A DNA stretch of 64,000 nucleotides, taken from NCBI GenBank assembly GCA_028554795.2, contig CM068838.1, positions 87,114,944-87,178,943 of the forward strand. The letters are read 5' to 3'. Origin of the DNA: Sinohyriopsis cumingii. Lineage: Eukaryota > Mollusca > Bivalvia > Unionida > Unionidae. This document shows positions 515 to 60,691 of the stretch, piece by piece (the first letter of the stretch is position 1; each line of letters opens with the position of its first letter). Under the pieces are notes generated by a model. The model did no database searches, was not told the DNA's origin, and worked only from the letters and a program-made list of their open reading frames with translations. The translations under genes were made by a program, and so were the position numbers.

Positions 515-566
<52 letters not shown>

Positions 567-1640: not shown

Positions 1641-1659
1641 CAAGAAGATTTTTGGTGAT

Positions 1660-4832: not shown

Positions 4833-4881
4833 CTAAAATATATCATATTTCCCGAGTCCAGATACAGCATCTCCTTCTGTC
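4833..4881 (-). CDS. Exon 27 seen: short connecting exon, module 5
   Basis: Phase 1 to 2, 49 nt, acceptor TTTACAG and donor GTATGG. It encodes [16 protein letters not shown] plus two bases of the next codon. The F-S-I exon that should follow is not recognisable in the remaining 4.8 kb, so the gene probably continues beyond the left edge. Confidence 0.72.
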
Positions 4882-7800
4882 CTGTAAAGAAAAAGCAATG
4901 TATTCTACTTCACAGGTTCAGTGGAAAATGCTCAGTGCCCACAGATAGCTGACAACTACACAAAGTTCAAGGAAAAGACAGATGAAATTATAAATGACAT
5001 AAGTTAACTCTAGTTGGGATCATGTTGCTGTTTGTCCTTGACCTTCAACTACTAACTGCAGGAGGGAATATTCACCTTGGATTGAAGACTAGGGTCAGGG
5101 AAAGAGAATGCTATGCCATAACAGCTGGGAATGTATTAATGCTATCAAAATTCCTTTTCCCTAAATCATAATAACCATGACCTTTTGATCCCAAAATCAG
5201 TAGGTCACTCTCTTAAATACAAACCCTCTGAAAACTTTGATGAAAGGTAAAAGCTCCGCAACTTAAACCATTTTGTTCTTTCAGTCATAGTGACCTTGAC
5301 CTTTTACCTTATGTGTTGAAAATCAAAAGGTTTTTTTCTTACCAAAAGTCTAAGCAATACATAAACTTGGGTAAAGGTACATGGCTGAGAAAAGTACTGT
5401 AGTTTTGTGCAGAGGCCCATATTTCATTTTCAAGCTACAGTGACACTGACCTTTTTGAGCACCTAAATAAACATACTTCTTCCTTACTGCAGGTGCAAGC
5501 CATCTACAAAGTTTAGCCCAAGTCTGTGATATAGAATGAAAATTATTGTGCACAAACAACCACTTTTGTTCTTTCTTCCTTAACCTTGGACATTTTGACT
5601 CAATAATTGACAGGCTTCTTTCTTGCCCCACCAATGCAAGCCATCAACAATGTTTGGTATAGGTCTGTGATGTAGAATCAATGTTACTGCCTATAAGCCA
5701 TTTTCTTCCTTTGTTCATAGTGACCTTGACCTTTGACCTTTTTTTATCATAAGGTAAATAATGTTTCCTAGGTGGTGGAAGTTACTGTGTTACAGACAGA
5801 TGGACATCACTGCATTCATCTGCCTCTTCAGTACTTAGGTCCATTTTGATCCCCACATGTTAAAACATTACTTTTAAATCCTATTTTCACCATTTTGTTT
5901 ATATAAAAAAACGAGCTGTCACTGCATACCTTCTACCTTTATTTTTCCTTTTTTTCAAAAGAGTACATTGTAAAAAAATGACCTACTACATGGTTAAATG
6001 CACAATTCTACAAAGTGGTAGACGGAATGTAGTGAACCAAAGTCATATATCGTATGAAATGGTAAAGTATGACTGGAATCATATCCTGCCTGAAATAATT
6101 TAATTGAAAAGCAATAATATGAATGCTCACAAATATCCTTTCAACATTTTTAGAGTGACAAGATATCAATTCAAGATAATTAACTTTAATGTTCATCTGT
6201 TTTCTGAAAGAAATTTTTTTACACAGAGGATGGTCAAGCAATTTAATTATTAAATAAACATTTTGCTTTTTCGCCTTCCTCTGCAATTCTTGCAACAGAT
6301 AAAACAAAAATTACAACACATTTTCTTACCCCAGTTGTAAGAAAAGATCTTCTGCAATCCCGTTAACTTTTCAATCCCATAAGAGATTTCAAAGTTGCAA
6401 AAGTCCAAGTTCAGGTAAGTATGCATGCTCAACCTTAGAGCATTCACCGTGACACAGCAATCGATAGAGGTGCATGTTTCAGACACTGAACAGACAACAC
6501 CAGATGGAAGTGTGGGAAGGGTAAGTTTCTTGTAGAAGCATTCTGTTAAAAAAAAAAAAAAATTATTTCAAAGCAGCAATAAATTACTGCAATATCAACA
6601 GTCTCTGTCAAAGATCTCCAGGTATGTATGTATGTATGCATGCATGTGCACATCAGCAAAATCCCACCTATTTAATGCAAAGTAAGTTAAGGAATCCCCA
6701 AAAGGCATACAATGCAACAGATACAGACAAAAGAAGGATAAAATCATCGTTAAAAGGAGTTGAAGTTTTGATATATGATTTTTCTGGATAATTGGTTATC
6801 TGGATAACTGATAAATATATAAAGAATAAGTTGTGTATTCTGGGAAGACTGCTGGTCCAGGTGCCTGAAAAGTCCACAAAAGTGACATCTCCATAATCAA
6901 TGTTTGACAGAATTGTATCAAGCTCCAATAAAAATGTGGCCCTGTATCTTCTCAGATCTAATATATAAGTGGTCCTATTATTTTATACCAGAATTGCTCA
7001 TTTTGTCCTAGAAATTCATACATTCTTCATCCGAAATTTTCTTTTCAATCATCTGCCATATTAGTTTAACAACTACTTCCCTTTGCAGCCTCCTGTTTTG
7101 TATGCCACATAAGGACATTGCAACATTATTTGGAAACGTAAACAGACTGTTGTCAATATGGCATGCATTGAATAACATATACTAGAATATTCAAATATGG
7201 TCAGGCAATCCTTATTTGGGTAAAATGAAATACCATAAGAGTCTTGTGTTATCAGCCATGGGTGACAAAGTGTGGTTAGCATAATTTATCTTATGTATAC
7301 TTACTTTTATCATCAGCCAAACTTCCTAAAACACATAACTCTACTTAGGTAGTAGATTATAAGTCAACGTCATCTTTTTGTCTTTGACAATATTTTTATT
7401 TGCTCCACTGTGAGGTATAGAATCACATCATAGCCCTGACCACATCAAGGCTATGATATCACAGCTACTGCCTCTCAAGCTCTGATACACAGCTAAGCTT
7501 GTATTGTCTAAAGCTGTTATACACACCTGGATCTGTATTGTCTCAAAGTCTAATACACACCTGGCCTTCTACTGTCTCTCAAGCTCTAACACCTGGCCGT
7601 CCTCTGTCTCTCAAGCTCTAACACTTGGCCTTCTACTGTCTCTCAAGCTCTAATACCCATCTCACCCCATATTGTCTCAAAAATCTCCAATATATACCTG
7701 ATCTTGCATTATATCAATTTCTAATACAACATGGCCCTCTACTGTCTCAAATTTTAATACACACCTGGCCCTACATTCACTCGTGCCTTTATACACATGC

Positions 7801-10800: not shown

Positions 10801-13800
10801 TTTTGGCCCCCACCCCCAAAGGGTGAATGGCCAGACAATACCATCGTCAAAGTCTACTGGCCGACTAATAGTTATAATGACTGTCTGTTCATGTCCACTT
10901 TGCATAGGAATGTTTTCACATCAACATCTGCTGCTGGAAGATGGTTAGTGAATGGACCTTTATGATGGGTTTAATTAAACGTATCCAACTATAACATAAG
11001 ACTTTCCATACTCACATTAAAACTATTCATTAACACCAACATCAAAACTGTTCATTAACACCACTACCAAAACTGTTCATTAACACCAACATCAAAACTG
11101 TTCATTAACACCAACACCAAAACTGTACATTAACACCAACATCAAAACTGTTCATTAACACCAACATCAAAACTGTACATTAACACCAACACCAAAACTG
11201 TTCATTAACATCAACGCCAAAACTGTTCATTAACACCAACACCAAAACTGTACATTAACACCAACGCCAAAACGGTTCATTAACACCAACACCAAAACTG
11301 TTCATTAACACCAATGCTAAAACTGTTCTTTAACACCAACACCAAAACTGCTCATTAACACCAACACCAAAACCGTTCATTAACACCAAGAGTGACATTT
11401 GAAACAGTGGCTGACTACACCTGCACTGCTAATGTCCACTGCATGTAGATGATGAATATATTGTCATTTCTATCCTCAATGTGAAATTAAAGTCATGGGA
11501 ACTTTATGCAAATAGCAGACTTACTACCAAGCTACATGGTTGTCTCCTTGGCATCAAGCAAGATGCCTGATTAATATCTGATGCGTCACTCTTATAAATA
11601 CTGTATAGGGGGTTTCGAGTTTGTATTAAAAATATTCAAGAAAACACTTTCATAAAAGCAGTGAATTGTCACTTACTTTTGTATATACTAAGGGAGGCTG
11701 AAAGGTCACAAATCAGCTGCGGGACTTCAGTTCCTTTCATCACAGAAAACTCGATCGTGCAGTTGCCATCAGCCTCAAAACACGCCAGTATGTCGAGGTC
11801 TATCAAGAACTTTTTCTCAGCTTCAAGTTTTCTGATGGAGAATCTGACAGAGCAAAAAAATCAGTGTGAGACATAAAAATTAATAGGATATACCAGTAAT
11901 CAGTCTTGTATTTGAGGGTTTGAATACGAGTCTGGAGGATGCTACTGTCACCAATTCAGTTTTATAATAAATCTAGTAAAACCGATATTTGCAATAGTCG
12001 ACCTATTTTCTGTCTAAAATCCACTAATAAGTACTAAATATCCCCATTACAATGTATTTTATAGAATGTCACAAAGATACAAGATAATGAATTGTTCGTG
12101 TCTCTAAACGACAAAGAACATGACATTTCAATGGAATCAAAGTTTGAGGCAGTTACTGCAAAACAGTTGCCAGCTGACCAGTTCCATAGCCTTTTAACAT
12201 TGCATTTGTGCTGGAGAAACTTACTCTATAATCCTCCATTAAATCTGTCATAAATATTGACTTAGTGAGTTCTTTAATTAAACTGAATTTATACATATGT
12301 GCCATAGTATTGGTACCACATGTGATATCAGTCACAAATAAAGGCACAGATTTTGCTTAGATTCAGAAATACTTGATGTAGAGCAAAATAAAAACAACAG
12401 ATAAGAGTCTAACATTTTTAGCTGAAATGGATTCGATGTCTTTTACAGTTTCCATTGCAAAAGAAAATGCTGACAAAGCAACTAATTCGAGTGGAATTAA
12501 TCAATTAAACAAATATGTGCCTTGAAGAAGTAGTCAGCAAGATGTTTAAGACAAGTTAATCTGAGCAAAATGGATGTGAACATTAAGCCACAAACAAAAA
12601 TACTAATTAAACTAACCTCACCACTGAAAAGTAATACCCAAAACATTCTACAAAAGATAAAAAGCAAAAGATAAGACTGAAAATGGACACTCACTCAAAA
12701 GTTAGGAAGTCTAAAATGGTAAATCTTTCCTTCTTTCCTGCAAGAAAATAAGACATCATTGTAAAGTATTATACAACTGATACATGAAGTCATATGCGTA
12801 GAAATAGACAACTAAACCTTTGGTTTTTTAGAAACCTGACTACATGTCCATTCAAACTAGTTACTATTTATCTACACTGATACAAAGAGAAGATAAGTTT
12901 TGTTATATTATATTCTCTAATAATGGAAAGAACCAGGATGAGATGAAATTTTCTGTATTTTGTTATTAAATTGGATTCCTGATAAGAGGTATGCACATTC
13001 TGTCAGCAACACAGTCAACACAGCCAAATGCTAACATACTAATGAATAGTCCATCGGCAAAAGTCAAATGCTAACATACAAATGCATAGCATGTCAGCAA
13101 CACAGTTAAATGCTAACATACTAATGCATAGTCTGTCAGCAACAGTCAAACGCTAACATACTAATGCATAGCATGTCAGCAACAGTCAAATGCTAACATA
13201 CTAATGCATAGTCTGTCAGCAACACAGTCAAATGCTAACATACTAATGCATAGCATGTCAGCAACAGTCAAATGCTAACATACTAATGCATAGTATGTCA
13301 GGAACATAAATGCTAACATACTAATGCATAGCCTGTCAGCAACAGTCAAACGCTAACATACTAATGCATAGCATGTCAGCAACAGTCAAATGCTAACATA
13401 CTAATGCATAGTCTGTCAGCAACACAGTCAAATGCTAACATACTAATGCATAGCATGTCAGCAACAGTCAAATGCTAACATACTAATGCATAGTATGTCA
13501 GGAAAATAAATGCTAACATATTAATGCATAGTCTGTCAGCAACAGTCAAATGCTAACATACTAATGCATAGTCTGTCAGCAACACAGTCAAATGCTAACA
13601 TACTAATGCATAGTCTGTCAGCAACACAGTCAAATGCTAACATACTAATACAATAATGGGAGACTCAAAGATGATGGAACATAGGGCAAGAACTTGCCTG
13701 TAGACCGGAAGGAGGGTAACAATGGAACAAAAATAAATTCATAAAACAAACTACTGATGTAGTGTCTTGTCCCTTGGTCATTGTGTTAATTATGTGAAGG

Positions 13801-16800
13801 CATGTTTTGTATGCGACTTTATTTATTAATTTCTGACCCCAATCATTGTAGAGCAGAAGAGGGATTTCAAAGCTGGTTTTCTCAATGCTCCCAGACATTT
13901 TGTAGCTACACATGTCAATATCATAGGCCACATGGAAAGACAGGCCAAGCTTCTCAATGAAGATACAGCAATCCAGAGCTGTACAGGATTCTGGAATGTG
14001 GCAGTGGATGGGCATGTTTGCTGGAAACGAGGGCAGCTCAACAAAACTCAGTGGACATTCTGCAATAATAATGATAATTAATATTAATAATAATAATAAT
14101 AACAACAACAAATTCATGAATCAACGTCACTTGTTGAAAGTAGGCAAATATGGTTTTGTAGCGGAAGACAGACTATGTTGGCAAAATAGCAAATGAGTCA
14201 AGAATCATTACACATATTTTAAACATTTGTAAATCAATACACTTCTGTTAAGATGGGTGATATCTAGAAGATCTGGGGAGATACCAATTCCTGTATTATC
14301 AACTGTCCCTGTTATAATGCATTTTCAGACTTTCTGCAATTTATTGTGATTTCAGTAAAAATGTTTCCTGTGAAGGCTTGGACAAGCTTGCATATGACCT
14401 ATAATGATTACAATTCCTCCCTGGTAATTCCGCTTTAAATAAGCTGATTTATGTTTGGCACAGCGATCAGAAGACGCAGATCTATTTCTGGACCTTTCTG
14501 AAGTACGATGAATTAAAAGCAGTTCATAATAAAATCATAATGAATAGTCATATGCATTTCATTTAACAATGACTAACCTTAAGTGTCTAAGGCAGGTTGC
14601 TCAAATTTATAATTTCATTGCAACAAATCAAATTTCATCATCAAGGGAGACAATCAATGCAAGCATAAAGCATCAATAAAACAGCATGATGAAAACATTT
14701 GTTTGTCATTAGTCACAGAATACAATGTGTAGTAGCTCATAAAGTACTCACAATTCTGGAGGATGCACATGACCCATGTTGTATTAATTTTATCAAGTGG
14801 TCAGTGATGGATTGTCTTCGTACAGCCATTGTGTGATCCTGCACCTGGCTGCAGGGTTGCCATGCTTTTTAAAACAAAAATTTCCAGATTTTTTCCACAA
14901 GTCTTCTGGGTAAAATTATTTATTCTTTCAAGGACCAGTTATGACCATTACTTAACAGAATTTTAAAAAATTTGGTTTAGAAAACATATTTTTAAAATCA
15001 AAGGTGATTTCTATTTTTAGATGCTCCAATAACATCTAATTTATACATATGACCATGTACCAAAACACAGTATCACTGGAAGTACTGAAATACAGTCCAA
15101 CCTGTACTAATGGTCATCCAAGTTCAGCAGTCACCTGGCTACAATGGCCATTCTAATTTTTCCTGTCAAAATTCTTTATAAATTTCATGTAATTACAGTC
15201 ACCTGTCTTCTGTGATCTGCGGTTATGTTTCTTAACCAAGCAACAGTTTGATTCTACTTTCCATGATCAGCAGCCATGTGTTTCTAAACCAAGTAGTGGT
15301 TTCATCTTCTGTGGTTGGTAGCCATGTTTTACTTGAACAAGCAATAGGTTCACCCTGCCTTCCATGGTCATTGAAGCTTACCTGCAGTGACCACTCCAAG
15401 TATGCAAATTAAACTTTTTTTGTTTTATGAGCAAGGCATGGTACATATAAAAATATATTATGTGAATCAATGTTTACACAGTTCATATTTTGATTGTACC
15501 ATAATCCAGTAAAACTCCAAGGTGTCAACATGTTGACTTCAAAAGTGGATTTTATCCTTACAGGAGAGGATCAAAGCTTGATAGTGGACAAAGTAGTTGT
15601 TTGGTTCCAGCAGAAATGAGAGCCAGGCAAACTCAGGTCCAAAGGGCTTTAAAAAATATAATGTCCAATTTTGATAATATTAATCCTGAGTGTAAGAGAT
15701 CACACACTATAAAAAGAAATGACGAGATTAATGAACATGCTGGAAATGGTTCCAGGATGCCACATCCCAGAGAATCAATTTATCAAGTTGAGATAAAAAA
15801 TCTCACATTAGAGGTATACTGCAGTAGTTATGTCCCTTACAGTTTAGAGGCTACTAACAATAGCCTCAACAAGATTCTTGTCATTCTCCAAACATGAAAG
15901 GTTGCAAACAAAGGCCAACTGTCTTTTGATCTGCTGACTTTGAGCAACTGCTTTAAATTTCAATCGTTTAAAGTATGAACACCTGTTTTCACACCTAATT
16001 ATGCCAACTGCCCTAAAAAAAGTCAGTTGTGTGTATCACAATTACAGGCAACTAAAATGGGGATCGAGATATGTACAAAAAAACACAGATCAGTGACTCT
16101 TTCAAGACTTAGTTATGATTTAATGCACATGGTGGATCAAATATAGCACAGATACAGTACCATTTAATGCATATGGAGGATTAAATATAGTTAGGATACA
16201 CTTTCATTGTGCAGAAGTTATTTTATGAAATTTTTATTTTTATTTTTGCTAAGAAGGTAAACTAAATAAATCTACCTTGGCAGCATACTACTGCTGATAA
16301 TAATAATAATACATGTGAAATAATAATTATGTGCCAATCCTAATACAGAGACACATTATTTACTGCAGTCCACCTAGTGGGAATAGGGGAGGTAATTTAT
16401 AAGATATTTTTTCCCTGATAGAGACATCAAAATGTTTTTGTCTTTCTGGAAGGGCTGGATTCTACATGTAGCTGAAAATAATTTCTAATGTTAATATATC
16501 AGATAATGAATTTGATAGAGAAATTCTTATCTCTTATGTAACTTACAGAAGTTGAGATGCTGAGCACTTTAAAAACTCTTTTAACGTAACTGAAAATAAT
16601 TGTGTCAAATACCAGTATACCAAATCCCATCAACACAATATTATAACTGCAAAGGTCCTTTAAAGAAAGGGCAATTTTACTTTTGAAATGATCAAAAGTG
16701 TATCCTTCTAAACTACTCGACGAGTCTAATATTTTTCTAGTCCACCCTACCGTTCCTCCAACCGCTGACTGAGGGTGAGTATGGGTTTCTGGTGTAGTCA

Positions 16801-22800: not shown

Positions 22801-22935
22801 TGATACCTCCTACATACAATGCAAATGCTCCAACATATTATGCCACAAGAGCAGTAGTTACAATAAATTGTTCAGGTTCTTTTTTTAAGTTTATGCATCC
22901 TTTCAATAATATTTTCAATCAAATATCTTCTGACT

Positions 22936-22969
<34 letters not shown>

Positions 22970-52900: not shown

Positions 52901-55900
52901 TTTCATCTAACTGACTGGTTTCTTGTTAATACATCCTGCTTTTTACATTGAAAACCATATTCTAAGTAACATTCTAAGATCCTGGTGCTGAAGTATTCAT
53001 CTCCCTACTTGTGTCCACTCAGAAAACTCCCATTAAAAATTATATCCCATCAAAATAGTAGTTTCTAGATGATTTAACAAGAGTCATACAATAGTACCTG
53101 CAGATATGATGTGAAATGTTCCTACATTCAATTTCTTCATGATTTCTGCAAAATCTGCATTAAATGCTGCAATTTCATACTCTGTGTCAGACCTACTTTG
53201 ACAACAGAATTCTGGTGATAACTGAATGTACAGTTTTTTTAAGAAGTAGAAGAAAAGTTTAAATGGATCCTGCAATCAGAAAGCATGTAACATTTAGATG
53301 TGTTAAAATAAGGGACAGCCTACCTAATATGCTCCGAACTGCAGTGCGTTTCCCAAGGCGCCCAGACCGAGACCTACCAATGCTCTTCACTTTGGAAAAC
53401 AATTTATTTGTTTCTGGAAAAAAAAAGAGGACATGTTAGCAATATCTCAGAGACTTACAAAACTAGGTGTGTCCATACAAAGACACCTCCAAGATTATGA
53501 TGCAATTAAAGGACAAAGTTCTAGATAAAGCAGGGGTCCTATACTCTGACTATACATCCCCGTTTGTTTGTACCCCCTACCGATATCAATTACAAAAACG
53601 TTTAATGTGATAAAAAGTGCACAGAACTAAGTCAACAGAATCACAGATTTGTAATTTCTAACCTGACTGTGACCAGAATGGCACTAATACAGGCATCCCT
53701 TGCACCTTTCATGCTTAACTGACTTTCCATACTAACATGGCACCATACTGCATACACTATGGGCTAGTTTATTTCTATCAGACAACATAATGACATAGTT
53801 GATCCTATTCGGTAACTGACAGATAATTCCGTAAATTACCATTATGTCGAGAATTTCGTATTATATCTCTTTGCACACATGAACACAGAAATTAAACCAC
53901 TTGTTAAATCCATGTGAAAGGCAAATCTGTTATTGTCATTCTTTTCCTTTGCTTGATTCAACATTGTAAATTTCGGAAGCAGACAACATATGTATGTACA
54001 TTGGTAGTCATGCACACACCCCTTTGCTGGAAATCGACTTGTCCAGGAAATGGAAATGGATCTTGAGCATGTCCGTTTATTATATTGAAAACTTCTGTTA
54101 AGCGAGAAATATGCAGACAAAAACGATGTTTGGGGCACTCTACTCAGTGTGCGGTTAGAAATTGTAAATCACTGAATGAATTAACTAAGTTCCTTGCACA
54201 TTGATCTTAACACGTTTCACCAACAACTACATTCTGCCCATGAACTGTGTTATTATGCAAACTGTAATGCAATGTGAATATGTAAAAAATTGTTGTAGAT
54301 GTAATGAAATATTTCCGGAGTAAAATGAAATCACTGTATTTTCATGACTGACAACGCAAAATATTTCCACTTCACAAGTGAAATATCTCCTCAGGTCTAA
54401 AATTTAAAAAGAACAGATTTTCTTTTTATTATATACTTTCTAAGGCTAAATCCATTGATTTGCAGTGATATTTTTATAAGTTTGGTGCCAATATAATTAA
54501 TAGCTGCATTATTACATCAATAAAAATAAGTTCCAAAATTTTAAAATACATTTATGATAGCATCCTTTTATAAATTTTGTTCATGCATGTAATACTTCAA
54601 ATTGTGCATTTTGTCAAATGAATGACTCATTTCATGTGCAAATAAAGTTATCTTTTTTTTGTTAATGCATTTCTTGTGTGGATTGGTACAGTGACCTTTG
54701 CTGGGGTCAGGGTTTTGTAGATACATAACAAAGGTTGCATCCAACAGATTTCAGAGAATAAAAACTTTAAACTAAAAAATTTAATGATTGTAGGTATACC
54801 TATAAGGATTTTGTTTCTTTATTTTCTTTATATCTATATTCAAGCATAAATTGTCTGGCCTTGGCAAGTTTGCAGTCCAGTTTGATAATAGATACTACAA
54901 ACACTTAATTTAAATCAACATTCACTTATCCACAATTTTTTTATATCATTTGCAAACATGATGATTGTTGTTTTTACGAATTAAACAATTTCATTATGCA
55001 TAGAAGAGAATAACATCTATATGATACTGTATGGGTAACAGTGAATATCAAATAGGAACAGGTTAATGTTCCGGTCACTGACAATCTGCATGATTATTAT
55101 GGAAAACTGATTTTTTTTCAAATAACACCTGAAGCCTACTTATTTTGGTGGAGTTCATTTTCTGGGCATTTGACCACAGCACTTCCCCACTGATTACATA
55201 AATGTATGCACTACCACAGTTCTGACATATTTCAAAATCTGTTCATCCTGAGAGAAAGAAAGCGAAAGAGAGAAAGAGGGAGGGAGGGAGGGAGGGAGGG
55301 AACAGAAGAAAAAATGTAATAGGCATTAATATGGAGATACAAGTCTGAATAACACATATAAAGGCAAATGTATTTCCTCAAAGGGAAAAGAAAGTAGTTC
55401 CAAAAGTGATATCACCACTGTGGTACTAAAAGTGGTATAGTCACTGTGGCAATATCGATTTTCCCCCATGATATATTCCGAAAACTCATTATGAAATGCA
55501 TGATAAAAACATGTATCACAAAACCTTAACCCTAACGATGATGAAGACAATGATACTGTGGCCACTGGAAATACGATACCTATGTCTTGTTATAAGCTAT
55601 CACAAATGAGGCAAAAAGTTTGAACCGAAGATGAATTAAAGAGTAAATGTGCTGTGCAATTTTTATAAACATAATTTATTGGGTATATTATTATCAACTG
55701 TAATAACTACAGTGAAACTATAAATTAGCAAAGATACAGAAAAATTTTTTTTTTATAATGATATCGATATTTAAACTCACCAGTCAATACATGATCTAAG
55801 CATTAGGCTAAAAATTTGAATTTCATAAAATTTGCTCACTCTAACATCTTTCAATTATGACGTCCATTACGTTTCAAAACCAGCTATATTTCCATGATGA

Positions 55901-58900
55901 ACACATTTTTCTAGTCCAAAGAATAATCAGACTAGAGAGGTCTCACTATTAATTCATTTGGGCCTAAGATATTTCTGTTTGGTTATATTTTCAATTACCT
56001 AACAACCCATACAAACCTTTGAAAGATTCACTACTGTAGGAGATAGCCAAATGTGATTTTATAGAACAATCAAGCAAAACTTAAAACAACATAAAAAAAT
56101 TTTTAAAAACAAGTTACTCCTCAAAGTTTCCAAATCTTTTGATGGATCTGCAGAAACATCTAAGTGAGCAACTTCTGGAGGGGTGTCGTTTTCCACATCT
56201 GGGGATGTGTCTTCAGCCTGAGTGCCACCCAGGCCCACAATGAAACCCTCTGCTATCGTCTTGAACTGAAAAATATAATCCACGTTTTTCACAGTTATTG
56301 TGTAAAGATTAAAATCATGCACTCCCCAAAAAAAATGTGTCTGTATTTTGTCTCATCTAATTAAATTAACACAAATCATTAAAAAATGTTTCATTATATA
56401 AGGTATTTCAACACAAAAATATAGATAACTTCCTTCTGAAGATTACTCAATTATGCAAGAGATGAATAGGTTTCTTTTATTCAACACAATATGTTGCCCA
56501 TGCCCTGTATCCAAGCACACATCAGTTTTGATAATGAGGACATTCACTGAGTGAAGTAAATTTATATACATACTGAAGCTATATACCAAATTTGCAAAGG
56601 GTGAGATAAATTGGCATTGATAATAGAAATGTAAAAACTATAAACATTGAAGTTAATTTAGGGTGTGGACCAGTGTATTTATGGATGTATAGACAGATAC
56701 ACATAGATGCAAAAGTGATCTCAAAGTCAAACAGGGTTCTACAAAACATTCATTACTGAATATAATTAAACATTTAAAAGTTAACAACATTACCACCCAA
56801 TTCAGCTTCCAAAACTATTATAGATCACTGTTCAAGGGTTCTACAGGGCAATGTCTGACCTGTGTGATATATGGCTATTTATCAAGGGTTCAACGGGGCA
56901 ATGTCTGAAATGTGTGATATATGGCTATTTATCAAGGGTTCTACGGGGCTATGTCTGACCTGTGTGATATATGGCTTTTTAACAGTTTTGACATTAGCAA
57001 TAATTACAATGCAAACCACCACCACCACCAGTCGGCAGTGATAACTACAGATGATTGTTATCTGATAATGTAGAAAAGACATCTATATGTTAAAAATGTA
57101 AAAGTAATTAAGGCTTTAAACTGAATCAAACTGCAATAGGTACAGTGGAAATTATACCTTCCAAACTAATCTGTAGTCATCACATTTCTGTCTCCACTCT
57201 GGCAGGATCATTTTACGTGACTCAAGGAAGCGAGTTGGGTCCATAGTACCTTCATCAACCCTAATAGCAAAGTGTATGTGGTTCTGTGAGCAGGGAGACT
57301 GTGTAGCTATTCCAATCACTTGGCCAGCTGCCACCTGAAAGTTGACAAACTGATGGACTTAACAAATACGACAAATGTATGCAAGTTATTTCTCTCTTGA
57401 TTTCATATGGGTAAAACAATTCATCAATATAACGATGCATTAATACTTTTGCTGTAATGATACAGATATTGATACAGGAGATGGAGAATCAATACAAAAC
57501 AATACTTACCATAAGTTATTTTAGTCTTCAGCAGCCATGAATAAATTATTATTAGTTTGACTTATTATTCTATAAATATAAAATTCATCACAGACAGTAC
57601 TTGCAGTCCTGAGCACTCTTTTTTCTTAGTTAAAACAAACTAATCCATTTAGAATACTCGTTTGGTGTCTGCAAATTAACATAAAAGTGACATGGTTTGT
57701 AACCTGCCCCCCCCCCCCCAATTCCATGTTCATATACACAAGGAAGTACTTTACTCATAATTTAATAACCACTTTTATGCAAAAATTTCTACAATGAATT
57801 GTATCTGGTCTACTTTGATCGATTTGAAAGCTACACTACTGGTGTGTCACACAGTGACATATGTTACAATGAAATCACTGCTAGTTCCAGTCCAGGTTAA
57901 ATAATAACTACAAATCAGGAATTGTGTAGCTGTGTGACAGACAGGAAGTACTAGCAATGCAACACAGAATCTTCATGCAAAAGTTATTAATTGATATGTA
58001 AAGTGCTTAAACACAGATGCTGTCAGGGTGTGCATTTGTGTGAATCATGCAAAATTTGAACAAATGTGCACACTTGGTGATGCACGAGAACTCCTGCAAA
58101 TTAGTTGCAAGTCCCGCATGTAAAAATATACTCAGCGAAACATAACATTTTTATTTAACTGTTCTTGTCATGACATTTGTGAGCTGTATTTGACATTTTA
58201 TCTGGAGTTTATTGTTTTCACATTTTCATGTTTCCAAATTTCATTGGATTGCATACATTTTTAACGAGTATTAATTATTATGACTGAATACAAAAAGTGC
58301 TTTGAGAAGTAAAAACTACACAAATCAGGTTTAATAGTGCATTTATTAGAATAACATGAGGGTCATTATACAGAGCTTTAAAGTTTAAAATTTATGAAAC
58401 TGCAAATTAAAATGTGATCAATCAACAACCTCACTTTTTTCATAAATGTATCAATTATACATATCGTTTAGCACTATAAGCAATATAAATACCATTGGTA
58501 TTAAATAAACAAGTGATTCTTTACCATTACATACACAACCGCTCTGGTGGCCTAGTGGTTAGAGCGTCCGCCTCGGATGCGGGAGGTCGTGGGTTCGATC
58601 CCCAGCCGAGTCATACCAGAGACTTACAAAATTGGTACTAACAGCTGCCTCGCTTGGCATTCAGCATTAAGAGGTTAGTGTTAGGACTGGTCCGCCTGGT
58701 GTCAGGATAATATGACTGGGTGGGACATCATGCTACAAGTCTGCAGCATGATGCCCCAGTGCTAGACATCACTATAAACTGGCACATTGCAGACATCGTA
58801 GCGATATGACTGAAAAATTGTTAAAGCTACGTTAAAAATCAAAATCACATCACATCACACCATTACATACAGTAAAGGATATGGGGGGTCACTTTGAATA

Positions 58901-60691
58901 TCATCTTGGTTCCTATCTTGTTCCGACTTTTAATTCATAGTCAAGGTTACCTACAAAAATATAAAAAACTGACACCCCTCAAATTTAAAGTGATTCACAG
59001 TGTTGTAATTTTGTTGGTGTCAAATCTAACAGCAAATTGCTCAAATCTGTGACATCTTTGTTTACAGCAGTCATACCAACCTCCTCACAGCTATGTTTCC
59101 CAGACTGGACACTGTTAATATGAGTGGGCAGAACACAGTTGATGCTAACTGTTGACAGGATCATACCATAATCCTAATTGATGTTAACTGTTAACAGGAT
59201 CATACCATAATCCTAAGTGATGCTAACTGTTGACAGGATCATACTATAATCCTAATTGATGCTAATTGTTGAATGGATCATACCATAATCGTAATTGATG
59301 TTAATTGTTAACAGGATCATTCCTTAATCCTAACTGATGCTAACTGTTGACAGGATCATACCATAATCCTAATTGATGCTAACTGTTGAATGGATCATAC
59401 CATAATCCTAACTGATGTTAACTGTTAACAGGATGATACCTTAATCCTAACTGATGCTAACTGTTGACAGGATCATACCATAATCCTAAGTGATGCTAAC
59501 TGTTGACAGGATCATACCATAACCATAACTGATGCTAACTGTTGACAGGATCATACCATAATCCTAATTGATGTTAACTGTTGACAGGATCATACAATAA
59601 TCCTAACTGATGCTAACTGTTGACAGGATCATACCATAATCCTAAATGGCCTTATGGCCAGGTGAATTAAATCAAACTCCATGTAAGACAGTGTCTCACA
59701 TGCCTCAGTAAGCTTATCAGTATAACCCACCAGTTTAAAACTTTCAAAAGCTTAATGCAAGGAATCAACATTGTTTATGGTGATCTCCTGTAAAAAAAAA
59801 TCAAAACATGTCTACCTGATTTTCAATATACAGTGGGTCTGATTGCTTCAGGATGGTGCTGTTTGGCTCCACATTCGTAATGACCAGTGTTGATCCCCCT
59901 AATGAACCACCACTGACAACAATCAAAACTTCATTTATCCCATCTTCTGGCAGCATGATGGATCCTGGAAATGGGGCTACAACCTAACAGAAAAAGTAGA
60001 AAATTGCAAAACAACAACTGTAAATCAACTTACAGTCTTGTCTCAAGAATCCAATATCAATATGCCCATCAAAACAATGTTAGAAAAACATGTTTGTAAA
60101 ATTAATTATAAAATGTCTCTGTTCAGTATATAATGATAAAAACTAGCAAACTAAATAGAAGTCTAATAAAGAAAACAACACAGCACCATGGCTGATTGAA
60201 ATTTATGCATTTTGGACAACTGATAAATTTTCTAAACTCTGCTAGCACTGGGATCACAGATTTTTCTATTTTAGAATTACTTTGATATCAGCAATTATCC
60301 ATTTTGCTGGTTCTACTGATGCATACTTTTAAAACCTAATTAGCAACATGAAAAAAAAATTCCATATCTAAAATTCTCAAAAACAATGCCTACCGTTTTG
60401 GGGCAAAATTAAAAAATAAAGTATTTTTATATATTCATAATCTTTATTTTATTAACATCGTCATTTTTTTGTCTTCTTTAAGTGGCTAAGAACTTGTCAC
60501 TTACGTTCTGATCCTGGTCAATCAATAGGTCCACACCCTCATCAGCGTACTCAGGGTCCCCAGACTTGAGGGAAGCTGGATAAAACCCAGAGCCCTGGCA
60601 GTTGCCATCAGCCAATCTCGTTGTTCTTGGGAAAAGCCTGTGGGCCGTGTAGCCAAACACCTGATCAATCAGGGACCTTGCCAAACGATAT
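4833..60691 (-). CDS. Giant multi-exon gene, partial: M23-like domain followed by at least five Cys-rich modules
   Basis: At least 27 exons read from right to left; each is listed separately. All joins agree in phase and give one open frame of about 1,297 codons. Order: M23/LECT2-like fold, acidic then basic linker, then five copies of a module. The same exon types recur in the same order with the same phases: helical exon, SAP-like or linker exon, Cys-rich exon, short exon, F-S-I exon. That repetition is strong evidence for real coding sequence. Neither the 5' end (signal peptide, promoter) nor the 3' end is in the window. Paired Cys and the M23 fold suggest an extracellular or secretory protein, but that is inference. 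I do not recognise a named family for the modules. Function unknown. Confidence 0.85.
4882..6329. repeat. Intron with roughly 180-bp units bearing TGACCTTGACCT motifs
   Basis: About 5010-5760 holds worn units built around CATAGTGACCTTGACCTTTGACC, followed by AAGCCATC and CAAAGTTT-like text and GTCTGTGATGTAGAAT. Clear motif copies are near 5285 and 5718, with variants near 5036, 5175 and 5446. The rest of the intron shows nothing recognisable. Confidence 0.6.
6330..6542 (-). CDS. Exon 26 seen: Cys-rich exon, module 5
   Basis: Phase 1 to 1, 71 codons, acceptor TTAACAG and donor GTAAGAAA. Landmarks: [47 protein letters not shown] and FSYNWG. It is a close structural match to exon 22. Confidence 0.9.
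6543..8353. repeat. Intron with degenerate CTCTAATACACACCTGGCC repeats
   Basis: Between about 7430 and 7960 short phrases such as CTCTAATACACACCTGGCC and TATTGTCTCAA recur roughly every 30-40 bp in a worn tandem array. A poly-A run and a GTAT run lie near 6545 and 6623. No exon is seen. Confidence 0.65.
8354..8518 (-). CDS. Exon 25 seen: fused helical and linker exon, module 5
   Basis: Phase 1 to 1, 55 codons, acceptor TTTCAG and donor GTACAT. Helix [20 protein letters not shown], then [16 protein letters not shown] and GAVSGWKNG. It aligns with exon 21 throughout, including the shared V-S-G-W-R/K-N-G end. Modules 4 and 5 are therefore closest to each other in structure. Confidence 0.9.
8519..11676. 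other. Intron, mostly unrecognised
   Basis: Between exons 25 and 24. A worn repeat with CCTGAGACGTATGAGA phrases lies at about 10165-10330, and a 25-bp minisatellite is listed separately. The open frame at 8846-9256 shows no domain. Nothing else is recognised. Confidence 0.5.
11018..11390. repeat. 25-bp minisatellite, about 15 copies
   Basis: The unit AAAACTGTTCATTAACACCA plus ACACC repeats at exact 25-bp spacing with point variants. Confidence 0.95.
11677..11843 (-). CDS. Exon 24 seen: F-S-I exon, module 4
   Basis: Phase 2 to 1, 56 codons, acceptor CTGTCAG and donor GTAAGTGA. It reads [18 protein letters not shown], then [18 protein letters not shown] and [12 protein letters not shown]. 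It is a typical copy of this exon type, with an amphipathic strand followed by C-x(7)-C. Confidence 0.9.
11844..12694. other. Intron, nothing recognised
   Basis: AT-rich sequence between exons 24 and 23. No repeat or coding similarity is seen. Confidence 0.5.
12695..12737 (-). CDS. Exon 23 seen: short connecting exon, module 4
   Basis: Phase 1 to 2, 43 nt, acceptor TTGCAG and donor GTGAGTG. It encodes [15 protein letters not shown] with the next exon. Same length as exon 14. Confidence 0.75.
12999..13650. repeat. 40/42-bp minisatellite, about 16 copies
   Basis: The unit contains AATGCTAACATACTAATGCA, then TAGTCTGTCAGCAACA(CA)GTCA. Two length forms (40 and 42 bp) alternate. A larger block of several units seems duplicated (13140-13310 against 13340-13510), a higher-order repeat. 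Confidence 0.93.
13838..14059 (-). CDS. Exon 22 seen: Cys-rich exon, module 4
   Basis: Phase 1 to 1, 74 codons, acceptor TTGCAG. Landmarks: [48 protein letters not shown] and LLLYNDWG. The donor at the conserved Trp-Gly position reads GTCAGA, a poor match, whereas most sister exons have GTAAG at this place. Confidence 0.88.
14060..16750. other. Intron with one dispersed repeat
   Basis: It contains an AAT microsatellite (about 14076-14102). At about 15095-15510 is a dispersed element starting ACAGTCCAACCTGTACTAAT. Its right part (GAGCAAGGCATGG, then GAATCAATGTTTA) recurs at 23027-23520. The open frame at 15601-15897 has no recognisable domain. The rest is plain AT-rich DNA. Confidence 0.5.
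16751..16936 (-). CDS. Exon 21 seen: fused helical and linker exon, module 4
   Basis: Phase 1 to 1, 62 codons, acceptor TTGCAG and donor GTAGGG. It joins in one exon what modules 2 and 3 split in two: helix [20 protein letters not shown], then [11 protein letters not shown], followed by a linker with [10 protein letters not shown] and SVSGWRNG. There is no SAP motif. The same fused form is found in exon 25. Confidence 0.9.
16937..17566. other. Intron, nothing recognised
   Basis: Sequence between exons 21 and 20. No repeat or coding signal is seen. Confidence 0.5.
17567..17742 (-). CDS. Exon 20 seen: F-T-V exon, module 3
   Basis: Phase 2 to 1, 59 codons, acceptor AACAG and donor GTAAGTTT. 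It begins [16 protein letters not shown], then [18 protein letters not shown] and [15 protein letters not shown]. It follows the pattern of exons 10, 15 and 24 with a longer loop between the Cys residues. Confidence 0.88.
18539..18620. repeat. 33-bp repeat with AGGTCA half-sites
   Basis: About 2.5 copies of a 33-bp unit in which CAAGGTCA occurs twice per unit (CAAGGTCACTATAACTCATG, then CAAGGTCATCATG). Confidence 0.85.
19047..19358. repeat. 78-bp tandem repeat, 4 copies
   Basis: Units begin CATACATGAGGAACAAGTCT at 19047, 19125, 19203 and 19281, exactly 78 bp apart and nearly identical. Confidence 0.96.
19775..20060 (+). repeat. Dispersed repeat D, copy 1
   Basis: It shares GTAGCCAACAGCA, an AATCATGTTTCT phrase, an AAAATGGATGCTTTC-like phrase and CAAGATGGTACCAT with 29140-29420, in the same order and orientation. 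The identity of the family is unknown. Confidence 0.55.
20848..21382. repeat. Roughly 60-bp tandem repeat, about 9 copies
   Basis: Units contain TCAAGTCATTCTATTTAAAC, then TGATTAATACAGTCTGTCAC and ATTGTATGTTACATTTTT, with small length changes. Confidence 0.9.
21436..21481 (-). CDS. Exon 19 seen: short connecting exon, module 3
   Basis: Phase 1 to 2, 46 nt, acceptor TTTCAG and perfect donor GTAAGTGG. It encodes [16 protein letters not shown] with the next exon, close to exon 14 in pattern (G-x-E-E-x-hydrophobic-x-L). Confidence 0.8.
21482..22532. other. Intron part, nothing recognised
   Basis: AT-rich sequence with a short duplicated phrase CCTGTACTCAGTCATGTCAA near 22432 and 22468. No gene is seen. 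Confidence 0.45.
22545..22855 (-). mobile_element. SINE family A, copy 2
   Basis: Minus-strand copy of the family at 2250, with the same body (CCCAGTCACATTATCCTGAC on the plus strand) and tail. The tRNA-like head is worn, and the B box reads GGTTCAAACACTGG. A GT run lies at its tail end. Confidence 0.88.
22939..22968. repeat. AAT microsatellite
   Basis: About ten AAT triplets in a row. Confidence 0.95.
23103..23412 (-). mobile_element. SINE family A, copy 3, inserted in another repeat
   Basis: Minus-strand copy with good A box (GTGGCCTAGTGGTTAGAGCG) and B box (GGTTTGATCCCCAACC), shared body and tail ending in a GT-rich run. It interrupts a dispersed repeat: GTAAGGCATGG before it and TGAATCAATGTTTA after it are contiguous in the uninterrupted copy near 15430. 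Confidence 0.92.
24585..24777. mobile_element. MITE-like element, copy 1
   Basis: About 193 bp. Inverted ends read CATGGGACCCAGGGTAGGCA at left and, reversed, CATGGTACCTGGGGAAGGCA at right. The element matches 45857-46048 from end to end. No coding capacity. Confidence 0.8.
24975..25226 (-). CDS. Exon 18 seen: Cys-rich exon, module 3
   Basis: Phase 1 to 1, 84 codons, acceptor TATAG and donor GTAAGTAA. Landmarks: [43 protein letters not shown] and ITLDWG. Six Cys are present. It has an extra stretch ([12 protein letters not shown]) between the Cys pair and D-P-C. Confidence 0.92.
25227..26356. other. Intron, nothing recognised
   Basis: AT-rich DNA between exons 18 and 17. No repeat family or coding signal is seen. 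Confidence 0.5.
26357..26402 (-). CDS. Exon 17 seen: short linker where SAP would be, module 3
   Basis: Phase 0 to 1, 46 nt, acceptor TGTAG and donor GTATGT. It encodes [16 protein letters not shown]. It occupies the slot of SAP exons 7 and 12 and has the same phases, but only a Cys/Pro loop is left. The call rests mainly on phase and position. Confidence 0.7.
26477..26780. repeat. Roughly 100-108-bp tandem repeat, 3 copies
   Basis: ATCATGAAGCTACT starts at 26477, 26585 and 26684. Copies share GGTTAATTGGCTTGAAAATG and TATCTTGGGTCATTAAATCT. Confidence 0.93.
26888..26976 (-). CDS. Exon 16 seen: helical exon, module 3
   Basis: Phase 1 to 0, 30 codons, acceptor GTTTCAG and donor GTAAGC. The peptide [15 protein letters not shown], then [14 protein letters not shown], is a shorter version of the module helix ending in L-x-x-L-G-I. 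Confidence 0.85.
27640..28022 (+). pseudogene. Tyrosine recombinase C-terminal remnant, broken
   Basis: The frame reads [19 protein letters not shown], then [20 protein letters not shown] and [20 protein letters not shown]. An AAT run then breaks the frame, and [20 protein letters not shown] follows in another frame. This matches the end of the tyrosine recombinases carried by DIRS, Crypton and related animal elements, where H-S-F-R-I-G-A-A-T-x-A, L-G-R-W and a catalytic Tyr occur in this order. Here the Arg of box II is His, and the frame is broken. The element type and its ends are not visible. Confidence 0.7.
28023..29139 (+). other. Intron part with open plus-strand frames, not recognised
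   Basis: Several overlapping plus-strand frames (28026-28830) follow the recombinase remnant and may be further decayed parts of the same element. No motif supports this. Confidence 0.35.
29140..29420 (+). repeat. Dispersed repeat D, copy 2
   Basis: It shares GTAGCCAACAGCA, AAATCATGTTTCT, AGAAATGGAGGCTTAC and CAAGATGGTGCCAT with 19775-20060 in the same order. Family unknown. Confidence 0.55.
29802..29956 (-). CDS. Exon 15 seen: F-S-I exon, module 2
   Basis: Phase 2 to 1, 52 codons, acceptor TTTCAG and donor GTAAGCC. It reads [15 protein letters not shown], then [14 protein letters not shown] and [10 protein letters not shown]. It shares with exons 10 and 24 the F/Y-S-I-x-K start, a C-x(5-7)-C pair and a Pro-x-x-x-Cys end. 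Confidence 0.9.
29957..31303. other. Intron, nothing recognised
   Basis: AT-rich DNA between exons 15 and 14. No repeat array or coding signal is seen. Confidence 0.5.
31304..31346 (-). CDS. Exon 14 seen: short connecting exon, module 2
   Basis: Phase 1 to 2, 43 nt, acceptor TTTTCAG and donor GTTGGT. It encodes [15 protein letters not shown] with the next exon. It has the same size as exon 23, and the same phases and position as exons 19, 23 and 27. Confidence 0.78.
31412..31864. repeat. 63-bp minisatellite, about 7 copies
   Basis: The unit ACTAAATAGTGTTCTGTGGC, then TTTATGTTGGTGCTATGCTA, TCAATCCTATCATATGGAAT and GCC. As 63 is a multiple of three it stays open on both strands (31572-31892 and 31685-32038), which does not indicate a gene. 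Confidence 0.95.
32061..32306 (-). CDS. Exon 13 seen: Cys-rich exon, module 2
   Basis: Phase 1 to 1, 82 codons, acceptor AACAG and donor GTAAGAT. Landmarks: [45 protein letters not shown] and INYDWG. It has a longer first loop than the other copies, and the usual Cys-Cys pair is a single Cys (FDVCM). It retains the D-x-C-x-F motif and the Trp-Gly end. Confidence 0.9.
32307..32797. other. Intron, nothing recognised
   Basis: Plain AT-rich intron between exons 13 and 12. Confidence 0.5.
32798..32939 (-). CDS. Exon 12 seen: SAP-like motif, module 2
   Basis: Phase 0 to 1, 47 codons plus one base, acceptor TTGCAG and donor GTATGG. After a Pro/Cys leader ([10 protein letters not shown]), residues [20 protein letters not shown] followed by REELEAALR are a very good SAP match. 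Leader Cys and motif placement match exon 7, so the SAP-like unit belongs to the module and is not an accident of one exon. Confidence 0.9.
32940..33724. other. Intron, nothing recognised
   Basis: Plain AT-rich intron between exons 12 and 11. The frame at 33177-33371 has no recognisable domain. Confidence 0.5.
33725..33852 (-). CDS. Exon 11 seen: helical exon, module 2
   Basis: Phase 1 to 0, 43 codons, acceptor TTTTCAG and donor GTTTGT. The peptide [18 protein letters not shown], then [11 protein letters not shown] and ILSELGLSE, is a long amphipathic helix. It aligns with exons 16, 21 and 25 through W/F near the start, scattered Ala and a final L-x-x-L-G-I/L. Confidence 0.87.
33853..34304. 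other. Intron, nothing recognised
   Basis: Intron between exons 11 and 10 with T-rich runs near 34130-34145. Confidence 0.5.
34305..34480 (-). CDS. Exon 10 seen: F-S-I exon, module 1
   Basis: Phase 2 to 1, 59 codons, acceptor TTGAAG and donor GTTACC. It begins KYSITKK, then [22 protein letters not shown] and [11 protein letters not shown]: the module plan of beta strands with C...C and P-x-P-x-C. It closes module 1. It sits about 9.7 kb from exon 9; the large intron holds the LINE and several arrays, yet the phases still match. Confidence 0.87.
35240..35660. repeat. Worn 16-20-bp repeat (ACACATGTAGCAGTCT)
   Basis: About 20 imperfect copies of ACACATGTAGCAGTCTGT or close variants in tandem. 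Confidence 0.88.
36225..37332. repeat. 33-bp minisatellite, about 33 copies
   Basis: The unit TAGCTATATTGCACTGCTAC, then CAGAGACCCCATT, at 33-bp spacing with occasional deleted units. Longer blocks repeat (36580-36720 against 36770-36930). The plus-strand open frames of 145 and 138 codons are by-products of the 33-bp period. Confidence 0.95.
37454..37919. mobile_element. Possible short TIR element
   Basis: The left end GGCCATCCATTTAGTATGCA resembles the reversed right end GGCTGTCCTTTTAGTATGTA. C-rich tracts lie inside both halves. No coding sequence. No target duplication could be fixed. Confidence 0.45.
37920..38420. other. Intron part, nothing recognised
   Basis: AT-rich DNA before the 57-bp array. 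No feature seen. Confidence 0.4.
38425..38795. repeat. 57-bp minisatellite, about 6-7 copies
   Basis: The unit ACTATAATACTGTATTCCAC, then ATTGTAAAGACAACAACTGA and CACCAGGAAAGTCAGCA. The period is 19 codons, so both strands stay open (147 and 191 codons); this is not evidence of a gene. Confidence 0.95.
38800..39600. other. Intron part, nothing recognised
   Basis: AT-rich DNA between the 57-bp array and the LINE. No feature seen. Confidence 0.4.
40445..41232 (+). pseudogene. LINE endonuclease (APE-like), frameshifted
   Basis: Motifs in order: [16 protein letters not shown] (the metal-binding Glu), [18 protein letters not shown] and, in a second frame starting near 41012, [11 protein letters not shown] with the Asp-His end. 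The shift between frames lies at about 41010-41020. A TGA at 41230 then stops the second frame just after the endonuclease. The catalytic residues are kept, so the damage looks fairly recent. Confidence 0.88.
41233..41710 (+). pseudogene. LINE region between endonuclease and RT
   Basis: It continues in the same frame after the [44 protein letters not shown] and [21 protein letters not shown] further frameshift at a run of C near 41708-41714 moves the coding frame into that of the RT. Confidence 0.8.
41715..43298 (+). pseudogene. LINE reverse transcriptase, catalytic motifs intact, cut short
   Basis: Uninterrupted from about 41715 to the TAG at 43296. Motifs: [31 protein letters not shown] (usually N-Y-R-G-I-S-L-L), motif [10 protein letters not shown], motif [14 protein letters not shown], motif C LLFADDAA, motif [12 protein letters not shown] and FTYLGSNIS. 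All three catalytic Asp are present. The TAG at 43296 and a TGA at 43314 cut off the last 70 or so codons ([10 protein letters not shown] onward). Confidence 0.92.
43581..44190. other. Intron part, nothing recognised
   Basis: AT-rich intron sequence between the LINE and exon 9. Confidence 0.45.
44191..44266 (-). CDS. Exon 9 seen: short connecting exon, module 1
   Basis: Phase 1 to 2, acceptor TTTTAG and perfect donor GTAAGTAA. It encodes about 25 residues ([20 protein letters not shown], then IEVVLK). It is longer than its equivalents in other modules (14-16 residues) but has the same phases and position between the Cys-rich and F-S-I exons. Confidence 0.78.
44267..45856. other. Intron part, nothing recognised
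   Basis: Plain AT-rich intron before the MITE copy. No array or coding signal is seen. Confidence 0.45.
45857..46048. mobile_element. MITE-like element, copy 2
   Basis: About 192 bp with 45-bp imperfect inverted ends: TTGGGCTGTTCCAATAAAAC at left, TTAGGGTAGTTCCATTTAAA at right when reversed, then CTGGGACCC against ATGGTACCA and GAAGGCA. It matches 24585-24777. Confidence 0.85.
46313..46522 (-). CDS. Exon 8 seen: Cys-rich exon, module 1
   Basis: Phase 1 to 1, 70 codons, acceptor TTTCAG and donor GTAGGT. It follows the module plan: CPL, a Pro-led loop (TMPEGLRC), [11 protein letters not shown] with the central Cys pair, [16 protein letters not shown], then a beta strand. Six Cys occur in this exon. 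Unlike the other copies it ends ...ENPLNG rather than ...DWG. Confidence 0.9.
46523..46957. other. Intron, nothing recognised
   Basis: Short AT-rich intron between exons 8 and 7. Confidence 0.5.
46958..47096 (-). CDS. Exon 7 seen: SAP-like motif, module 1
   Basis: Phase 0 to 1, 46 codons plus one base, acceptor CTGCAG and donor GTATGT. After [10 protein letters not shown], residues [20 protein letters not shown] followed by RDELIGNL match the SAP pattern: a helix, Gly-hydrophobic-x-x-x-Gly, basic residue, x-E-L, then a second helix. SAP motifs usually bind nucleic acid in nuclear proteins, so one beside Cys-rich modules is unusual; the fold may serve another role here. Confidence 0.85.
47463..49835. 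mobile_element. Kolobok-like DNA transposon, decayed, TTAA target sites
   Basis: The ends AGGTCACCGGCCA and TGGCCGGTGACCT are perfect 13-bp inverted repeats, and TTAA flanks both (47459-47462 and 49836-49839). A THAP-type fragment lies near the left end. TTAA duplication plus a THAP domain is the signature of the Kolobok superfamily; piggyBac also uses TTAA but lacks THAP. At 2,373 bp with no transposase core it is a deleted, non-autonomous copy. Confidence 0.82.
47757..47861 (+). pseudogene. THAP zinc-finger fragment
   Basis: A 34-codon frame: [20 protein letters not shown], then [14 protein letters not shown] and a stop. It has the THAP start (C-x4-C within the first ten residues) and the Phe-rich strand before a basic stretch. 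The later Trp and C-x2-H of a full THAP domain are missing. It probably is the first coding piece of the Kolobok transposase. Confidence 0.72.
49857..50008 (-). CDS. Exon 6 seen: helical region leading into module 1
   Basis: Phase 1 to 0, acceptor TTTCAG and donor GTAACA, 51 codons with the shared first base. The peptide is amphipathic: [20 protein letters not shown], then [16 protein letters not shown]. It holds the place of the helical exons of later modules, and its ...FLDNLGM resembles their ...LLxxLGI ending. Its splice donor lies only 21 bases from the end of the Kolobok-like element. Confidence 0.85.
50009..51476. other. Intron part, nothing recognised
   Basis: AT-rich sequence. A 111-codon plus-strand frame at 50731-51066 shows no recognisable domain. 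Confidence 0.4.
51487..51746 (+). mobile_element. SINE family B, copy 2, with TSD
   Basis: Head CAAGTGGCCGAGTGGTCTAA (A box) and GGGTTCAAGTCT (B box). The body has TGTGAGAAAGCTTGCCTGTA, then GGTTTTCCCAGGTTCTTCC. The 3' part AAATGGCGTTAAACCCC ends in a CAA-rich tail. The flanks share ACAAAAAGTA at 51477-51486 and 51746-51755. Confidence 0.9.
51930..52620. repeat. Dispersed degenerate repeat C, second copy
   Basis: It shares TTATAAGAAGTCTT, GGAGGAGTAG with TAACAAGATG, and ACCACCCAATAAGCTCTTAT with 1660-2680. As at the left edge, it follows a family B SINE. Confidence 0.5.
53098..53269 (-). CDS. Possible alternative exon between exons 3 and 6
   Basis: A 57-codon open segment with acceptor TTGCAG and donor GTACTA, running phase 0 to 1. 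Its phases do not fit between exons 5 and 6. They do fit exactly if it replaces exons 4 and 5 together (exon 3 ends in phase 0, exon 6 starts in phase 1). The peptide begins [17 protein letters not shown] and contains a Cys pair (PEFCCQS). It has no clear similarity to the other exons. It may be an alternative cassette, an old exon or chance. Confidence 0.4.
53324..53413 (-). CDS. Exon 5 seen: basic Arg/Lys-rich linker
   Basis: Phase 1 to 1, 30 residues, acceptor TTTCCAG and donor GTAGGC. The peptide is strongly basic: [25 protein letters not shown] contains a dibasic pair of the kind cut by furin-like proteases, and the stretch also resembles a nuclear localisation signal; the sequence cannot decide. 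The exon is symmetric in phase, so it could be skipped without a frameshift. Confidence 0.8.
53414..56117. other. Intron, mostly unrecognised
   Basis: A GGGA microsatellite is at 55271-55300. No transposon or gene is recognised in the rest. Confidence 0.45.
56118..56265 (-). CDS. Exon 4 seen: acidic linker
   Basis: Phase 0 to 1, 49 codons plus one base, acceptor TTTTCAG and donor GTAACTT. A hydrophobic start ([15 protein letters not shown]) is followed by an Asp/Glu/Pro-rich stretch ([17 protein letters not shown]) typical of a disordered linker, then [10 protein letters not shown]. It connects the M23-like domain to the basic exon 5. Confidence 0.85.
56832..56981. repeat. 50-bp tandem repeat, 3 copies
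   Basis: TCAAGGGTTCTACGGGGCAA, then TGTCTGACCTGTGTGATATA and TGGCTATTTA, starting at 56832, 56882 and 56932. Confidence 0.95.
57158..57334 (-). CDS. Exon 3 seen: M23-like C-terminal part with HxH
   Basis: Phase 0 to 0, 59 codons, acceptor TTTCAG and donor GTATAA. It holds [12 protein letters not shown], then NHIHFAI, the G-x-x-I-G turn and H-x-H metal motif that end M23 domains. After it, MDPTRFLES is the usual D-P-x-x-F/Y-L close. The last residues ([15 protein letters not shown]) lie outside the fold. Both His of HxH are present, so metal binding is possible although the first His ligand is replaced. Confidence 0.92.
57335..58535. other. Intron part, nothing recognised
   Basis: AT-rich intron with an 11-bp run of C near 57709. 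No gene is seen. Confidence 0.45.
58536..58858 (+). mobile_element. SINE family A, copy 4, young, with 13-bp TSD
   Basis: Complete copy: A box TGGCCTAGTGGTTAGAGCGT, B box GGTTCGATCCCCAGCC, body GTCAGGATAATATGACTGGG, tail AAAGCTACGTTAAAAATCAA followed by CACAT repeats. It is flanked by a perfect ACCATTACATACA at 58523-58535 and 58859-58871. The clean tRNA-like head and intact duplication point to a recent insertion. It is not a tRNA gene because the SINE body follows directly. Confidence 0.95.
59139..59643. repeat. 39-bp minisatellite, about 13 copies
   Basis: The unit CTAATTGATGCTAACTGTTG, then ACAGGATCATACCATAATC, with point variants. Confidence 0.95.
59816..59983 (-). CDS. Exon 2 seen: M23-like beta core
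   Basis: Phase 0 to 0, 56 codons, acceptor TTAG and donor GTAGAC. It opens with [10 protein letters not shown], matching the V-x-A-P-F/A-x-G strand that follows the first ligand pair in M23/LECT2 domains. Next come a Gly-Ser-rich beta region ([10 protein letters not shown]) and a strand LVITNVEP. It joins exon 1 directly: ...DQDQN then VVAPFPG. Confidence 0.9.
59984..60504. other. Intron, nothing recognised
   Basis: AT-rich intron between exons 2 and 1. Confidence 0.5.
60505..60691 (-). CDS. Exon 1 seen: start of M23/LECT2-like domain
   Basis: Bounded by acceptor ATAG at the right and donor GTAAGTG at the left. It begins with the last base of a codon and ends in phase 0 (62 codons). A helical start ([14 protein letters not shown]) leads into [12 protein letters not shown] and then YADEGVDLL. 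This resembles the first metal-binding strand of M23/LECT2 domains, where H-x-G-V-D is usual. Here the His position is Asp, while the GVD Asp is kept. The exon donating the first two bases lies further right, so the protein start is not seen. Confidence 0.88.

Follow-up and report, generated by a model that had tools for sequence, protein, structure and literature searches.

In the genome of the bivalve Sinohyriopsis cumingii, the minus strand of a 64,000-nucleotide stretch of DNA (the window; contig CM068838.1) carries what is almost certainly a real gene, encoding an M23-like domain, two SAP motifs, and a series of cysteine-rich modules built on a strict cysteine code. The product would be read as a secreted disulfide scaffold that carries a degenerate M23-like binding head, an interpretation to which, taken as a whole, we give an even chance. 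Its parts differ in strength: a secreted scaffold built on disulfides is likely, and a head that binds microbes is a tentative and somewhat doubtful proposal.

The DNA of the window is AT-rich and the introns are long. The gene was rebuilt from splice-site scores, open frames, and the likeness between the repeats, and spans 60691 to 4833 on the minus strand; its 27 exons amount to 3,891 nt, or 1,296 codons, free of stops (Table 1). All of the boundaries are AG/GT and all of the phases are compatible. The original prediction of a single large modular gene, with 27 phase-consistent exons and an open frame of about 1,297 codons, is thus borne out by the rebuilt series, the coordinates of which agree with it almost to the base. 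Within the modules, A exons enter in phase 2 and leave in phase 1, A' exons are 2/2, B exons 1/1, and C exons either 2/1, or 2/0 followed by a further 0/1 exon. The model is weakest in its linkers, in the short A' exons, and at a number of low-scoring splice sites, namely those of Lk1 and C4, the donors of B1, M23c, and S0, and the acceptor of A1'. For the first acceptor, 60660 is an alternative to 60691, and within the window neither end of the gene is closed.

Table 1. Exons of the rebuilt gene, in order of the coding strand (coordinates are positions in the window).
Exon	Coordinates	Strand	Remarks
M23a	60505..60691	-	Start of M23-like domain; ADEGVD replaces HxGxD
M23b	59816..59983	-	M23-like domain
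M23c	57158..57334	-	HxH motif (NHIHF)
Lk1	56118..56265	-	Acidic linker; weak splice scores
Lk2	53324..53413	-	Basic linker with GKR dibasic site; modelled frame not preferred by codon bias
C0	49857..50008	-	Not recovered by held-out profile
S0	46958..47096	-	SAP motif 1; alone under Pfam cut-off
A1	46313..46522	-	Recovered by held-out profile
A1'	44191..44266	-	Phase 2/2, as other A' exons
B1	34305..34480	-	Recovered by held-out profile
C1	33725..33852	-	Not recovered by held-out profile
S1	32798..32939	-	SAP motif 2; over Pfam cut-off
A2	32061..32306	-	Lacks Cys 2 and Cys 4; recovered by held-out profile
A2'	31304..31346	-	
B2	29802..29956	-	Recovered by held-out profile
C2	26888..26976	-	Marginal recovery by held-out profile
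C2'	26357..26402	-	Short; occupies the place of the SAP exon
A3	24975..25226	-	Recovered by held-out profile
A3'	21436..21481	-	
B3	17567..17742	-	Recovered by held-out profile
C3	16751..16936	-	Recovered by held-out profile
A4	13838..14059	-	Recovered by held-out profile
A4'	12695..12737	-	
B4	11677..11843	-	Recovered by held-out profile
C4	8354..8518	-	Weak splice scores; recovered by held-out profile
A5	6330..6542	-	Recovered by held-out profile
A5'	4833..4881	-	Ends in a donor; if unspliced, three further codons and then a stop

That the series is open counts for little in itself as evidence for the model, because some of the exons were picked for being open and in phase. Each exon of the repeated types was therefore held out of its own profile, which was then searched against 1,828 six-frame segments, each running from stop to stop over 22 codons or more. 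All five A exons outscored every non-family segment (E 1.6e-7 to 2e-14), as did all four B exons (E 0.016 to 2.2e-8). Three of the five C exons were recovered, C2 among them only marginally, at E 0.36 compared with 0.82 for the best unrelated segment. C0 (E 68) and C1 (E 13) were not recovered from the 1,828 segments, which leaves place, phase, and a short LG[IML] motif as the grounds for relating them to C2-C4. Furthermore, when each exon was scored in leave-one-out fashion by the codon usage of the remaining 26, the modelled frame was preferred in 23 of the 27, the misses being Lk2, A3, C3, and A5', and the summed codon score was 119.7, compared with a maximum of -32.9 in 200 random sets of intronic intervals scored in the best frame of each. 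A profile search of the window gave no sixth A exon: the best segment beyond the five known A exons had an E value of 0.065.

Various repeats and elements lie in the introns and flanks. For example, the intron between A1' and B1 holds a non-LTR retrotransposon in antisense orientation (40385-43298, plus strand), where the GC content rises to 0.50 and matches to endonuclease and reverse transcriptase lie in separate frames. A tRNA-Pro (CGG) was called at 58541-58613 on the plus strand; the same stretch is repeated near 2212-2637 and 22560-23480, and for this reason the call probably marks the head of a tRNA-derived SINE rather than a functional tRNA. Large tandem arrays occupy 60878-61928, 36228-37333, 13016-13649, 59139-59645, and 11019-11389. 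The array at 60878, with a 75-base unit, lies within an open minus-strand frame of 364 codons, which is a repeat and not a gene.

The ends of the gene were also searched. Between 60700 and 64000, none of 23 listed candidates for a first exon with a signal peptide was convincing, and seven of them fit the phase; the least poor (62894-62958, minus strand) is hydrophobic and in the right phase, with a weak donor. At the other end, a search of 1-4832 yielded no candidate exon for B5 or C5, and the matches to B there are at chance level (E 7.7 and 17). It is possible that the truncated fifth module is the true end, because of the early stop in the unspliced A5' frame.

The original prediction had the same exon series repeated five times. 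Exon A does recur five times; the complete modules (A-A'-B-C) number four, and the fifth, at the low end of the window, is truncated to A5 and A5'. Module 1 closes with the second SAP motif, S1, where module 2 has the short exon C2', and in modules 3 and 4 the C exon continues into a short tail without an intervening intron. A phase-0 intron follows the LG[IML] motif in C0/S0, C1/S1, and C2/C2' and is absent from C3 and C4, which suggests that it was lost together with the SAP exon during duplication of the modules. Pairwise identity between modules is 21-31% over the aligned residues. Modules 1, 3, and 4 each have exactly ten cysteines, at aligned positions, and the six cysteines of module 5 (A and A') are all in exon A, which is the A share of the ten. 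Module 2 has eight, with Cys 2 replaced by Tyr and Cys 4 by Val. Outside the modules there are 4 of the 48 cysteines of the protein. Neither this ten-cysteine rule, nor the histidine missing from the M23-like domain, nor the two SAP motifs had been part of the original prediction.

Since Cys 2 and Cys 4 are missing together in module 2, this one case suggests that they are disulfide partners. An arrangement of five disulfides per module, with the 2-4 bond lost as a pair in module 2, is suggestive only, as it too draws on one case. Fold models were made for half-domains from 4-5 sequences: that of exon A (with four relatives) has five strands, with a mean pLDDT of 79.4 and a pTM of 0.58, and that of exon B has three strands, with a mean pLDDT of 71.2 and a pTM of 0.44. 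Foldseek searches of the two against the PDB returned nothing at E 0.001, the lowest E values being 0.84 and 2.9; this is weak evidence because each model is half a domain. The whole protein has 11 N-glycosylation sequons, a number that is not diagnostic.

Repeated domains without names in the libraries are often hidden in large animal proteins. SAP and M23 are known domains, and searches with the module against Pfam and PDB sequences gave no credible match; NCBIfam was searched with the five A-exon segments and C4 only, and returned none. In Pfam, neither the A-exon and C4 segments nor the whole protein gave a credible match to the module, and module by module, across all five, the best non-SAP match had an E value of 0.16, below the cut-off. 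Among PDB sequences, there was no match to exon A3 or to the protein after the M23 domain, none at E 10 to the profile of the module alignment, and matches at chance level only to the A and B profiles; the hits of E 0.16 to profile A1 and E 0.85 to profile A2 were judged to be chance. Within the Pfam and PDB sequences searched, the view of the repeated cysteine-rich unit as one without a family name is supported. DUF4773, an insect family that we take to have a similar order of cysteines, was set aside as its identity, no such match being listed by Pfam. With exons A5 and A3 as queries, viral contigs gave 14 and 3 pattern-matching stretches, respectively, none of which was confirmed by tblastn. 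The literature search, which has most subscription journals outside it, gave no description of an architecture of M23, SAP, and cysteine modules among the matches listed. The module may be present in animal proteins, either uncharacterised or named. We consider it possible, at slightly below an even chance, that A-A'-B(-C) represents a domain family that has yet to be described, extracellular, mostly beta, and with ten cysteines, set apart from Pfam and the PDB only, and that it is built here into a modular receptor or scaffold with SAP-type hinges and a degenerate M23 head.

The M23-like nature of the first domain, part of the original prediction, is supported at a borderline score: searched alone, residues 1-177 match Peptidase_M23 (Pfam PF01551) with an E value of 2.6e-6 and 28.0 bits, just below the cut-off of 28.7, and in a search with the whole protein the score is 23.1 bits. 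The match covers positions 4-96 of the 96 in the profile. The head was aligned by MAFFT with three bacterial M23 domains, from Cryobacterium, Rhodococcus, and Agrobacterium, the last of which is itself degenerate at both motifs. At the Hx3D zinc motif, the head has D-E-G-V-D in comparison with H-x-G-x-D in Cryobacterium and Rhodococcus. By spacing, the position of the first zinc-ligand histidine is Asp 50, whereas MAFFT sets the bacterial histidine opposite Ala 49 with a gap. Asp 54 is retained, as are both histidines of the HxH motif, and Gln stands opposite the histidine that the Cryobacterium and Rhodococcus sequences have some 30 residues ahead of HxH. Because there is no histidine as first zinc ligand in either alignment, the head is M23-like and probably not a normal peptidase. 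Asp too can bind zinc, and catalysis may therefore not have been lost.

In searches with the M23 domain, every one of the best 10 of 12 plasmid records bears an annotation as an M23-type or peptidoglycan peptidase (best E 0.04), phages gave 2 unannotated places (best E 0.7), and among contigs of prokaryote genomes none of 417 stretches matching the M23c pattern was confirmed. A resemblance to LECT2, as originally proposed, found no support: a phmmer search against PDB chains up to E 10 returned SpoIIQ (E 0.05 and 0.11), presumably a degenerate member of M23, together with unrelated proteins, and listed no LECT2, the presence of which among those chains is unconfirmed. Compared with the M23 family, the head keeps HxH and matches the profile over the whole domain, but it has no first zinc-ligand histidine and belongs to a giant animal protein of many modules. 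Degenerate members such as EnvC and NlpD likewise lack part of the active site. M23 proteins without catalytic motifs or zinc are described as interaction hubs in a review (PMC9662197), which also presents LECT2 as a degenerate M23 protein without the catalytic histidine; the degeneracy of the head differs from that of LECT2 as portrayed there.

After the M23-like domain, the order is an acidic linker, a basic linker, unit C0, SAP motif S0, and the modules. For SAP (PF02037), S1 scores 31.7 bits, above the cut-off of 23.9, S0 alone scores 21.1, below it, and the two together in the whole protein reach 39.9 bits (E 3e-10). The basic linker has ten Lys/Arg and no acidic residues; its GKR is a possible processing site between head and modules, and, speculatively, could let a convertase release the head. 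Secretion is suggested by the cysteines, and the SAP motifs argue against it, because such motifs are usually nuclear. Likeness to the SAP family lies in the pair of motifs, of which one passes the cut-off by itself; the difference is that they are placed between cysteine-rich modules and an M23-like domain in a protein that is not visibly nuclear. There is a precedent in MANF, which PMC6358605 describes as a secreted/ER protein with a SAP domain. Compared by description and not by alignment, MANF/CDNF share with this protein a SAP-type motif in a probably secretory, cysteine-bearing context, and no other common domain was seen.

Several other explanations can account for parts of these observations. 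The main rival, which we regard as unlikely, is a structural or matrix protein, such as in the egg coat, mucus, or the matrix of shell or byssus, in which the M23-like head only aids assembly. A chain of strict-cysteine modules over 1,296 codons with both ends open speaks for such a protein, whereas none of this make-up was named in the literature, among the matches listed in the part covered. Improbable to a greater degree is an antibacterial enzyme, with a head that still cleaves peptidoglycan through an Asp-x3-Asp/HxH zinc site and is tethered by the modules. Retention of Asp 54 and of both HxH histidines speaks for activity, as does a match along nearly the full PF01551 profile, and these are set against a first ligand that is not His, the Gln that replaces the upstream histidine, and a score under the Pfam cut-off.

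The two SAP motifs and the basic stretch in Lk2 could instead point to an intracellular or nuclear protein with cysteines that are metal ligands or reduced. The regularity of the ten cysteines, their paired loss, and the M23-like head are at odds with this, and we hold it to be quite improbable. The least probable of the alternatives, to which we give very little weight, divides the locus into two adjoining genes, one with M23 and SAP and a separate one with the cysteine modules. In its favour, a 9.7 kb intron with a LINE splits module 1; against it, C0-SAP upstream and C1-SAP downstream have a common layout and phases, and the junction between S0 and A1 is in phase.

In the preferred reading, a secreted scaffold with a degenerate binding head, each module would consist of a mostly beta domain, locked by disulfides, with a short helical hinge after it, and the whole would act as an extended extracellular scaffold. 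The head, without its first zinc-ligand histidine, would no longer be a normal peptidase and would serve in binding, its ligand most likely being the bacterial cell wall or a partner protein. The chain of modules may then display the head at a surface, in mucus, or in a matrix.

The strict cysteine code, phase-locked exons, and coupled loss of cysteines make the module a clean starting point for a new profile. Its fusion to a degenerate M23-like domain and SAP motifs is a testable case of an animal re-using the fold of a bacterial wall enzyme for binding. If the reading of the module as a new domain family is true, it would mean that an animal has recruited this fold for recognition, at the head of a new kind of disulfide chain.
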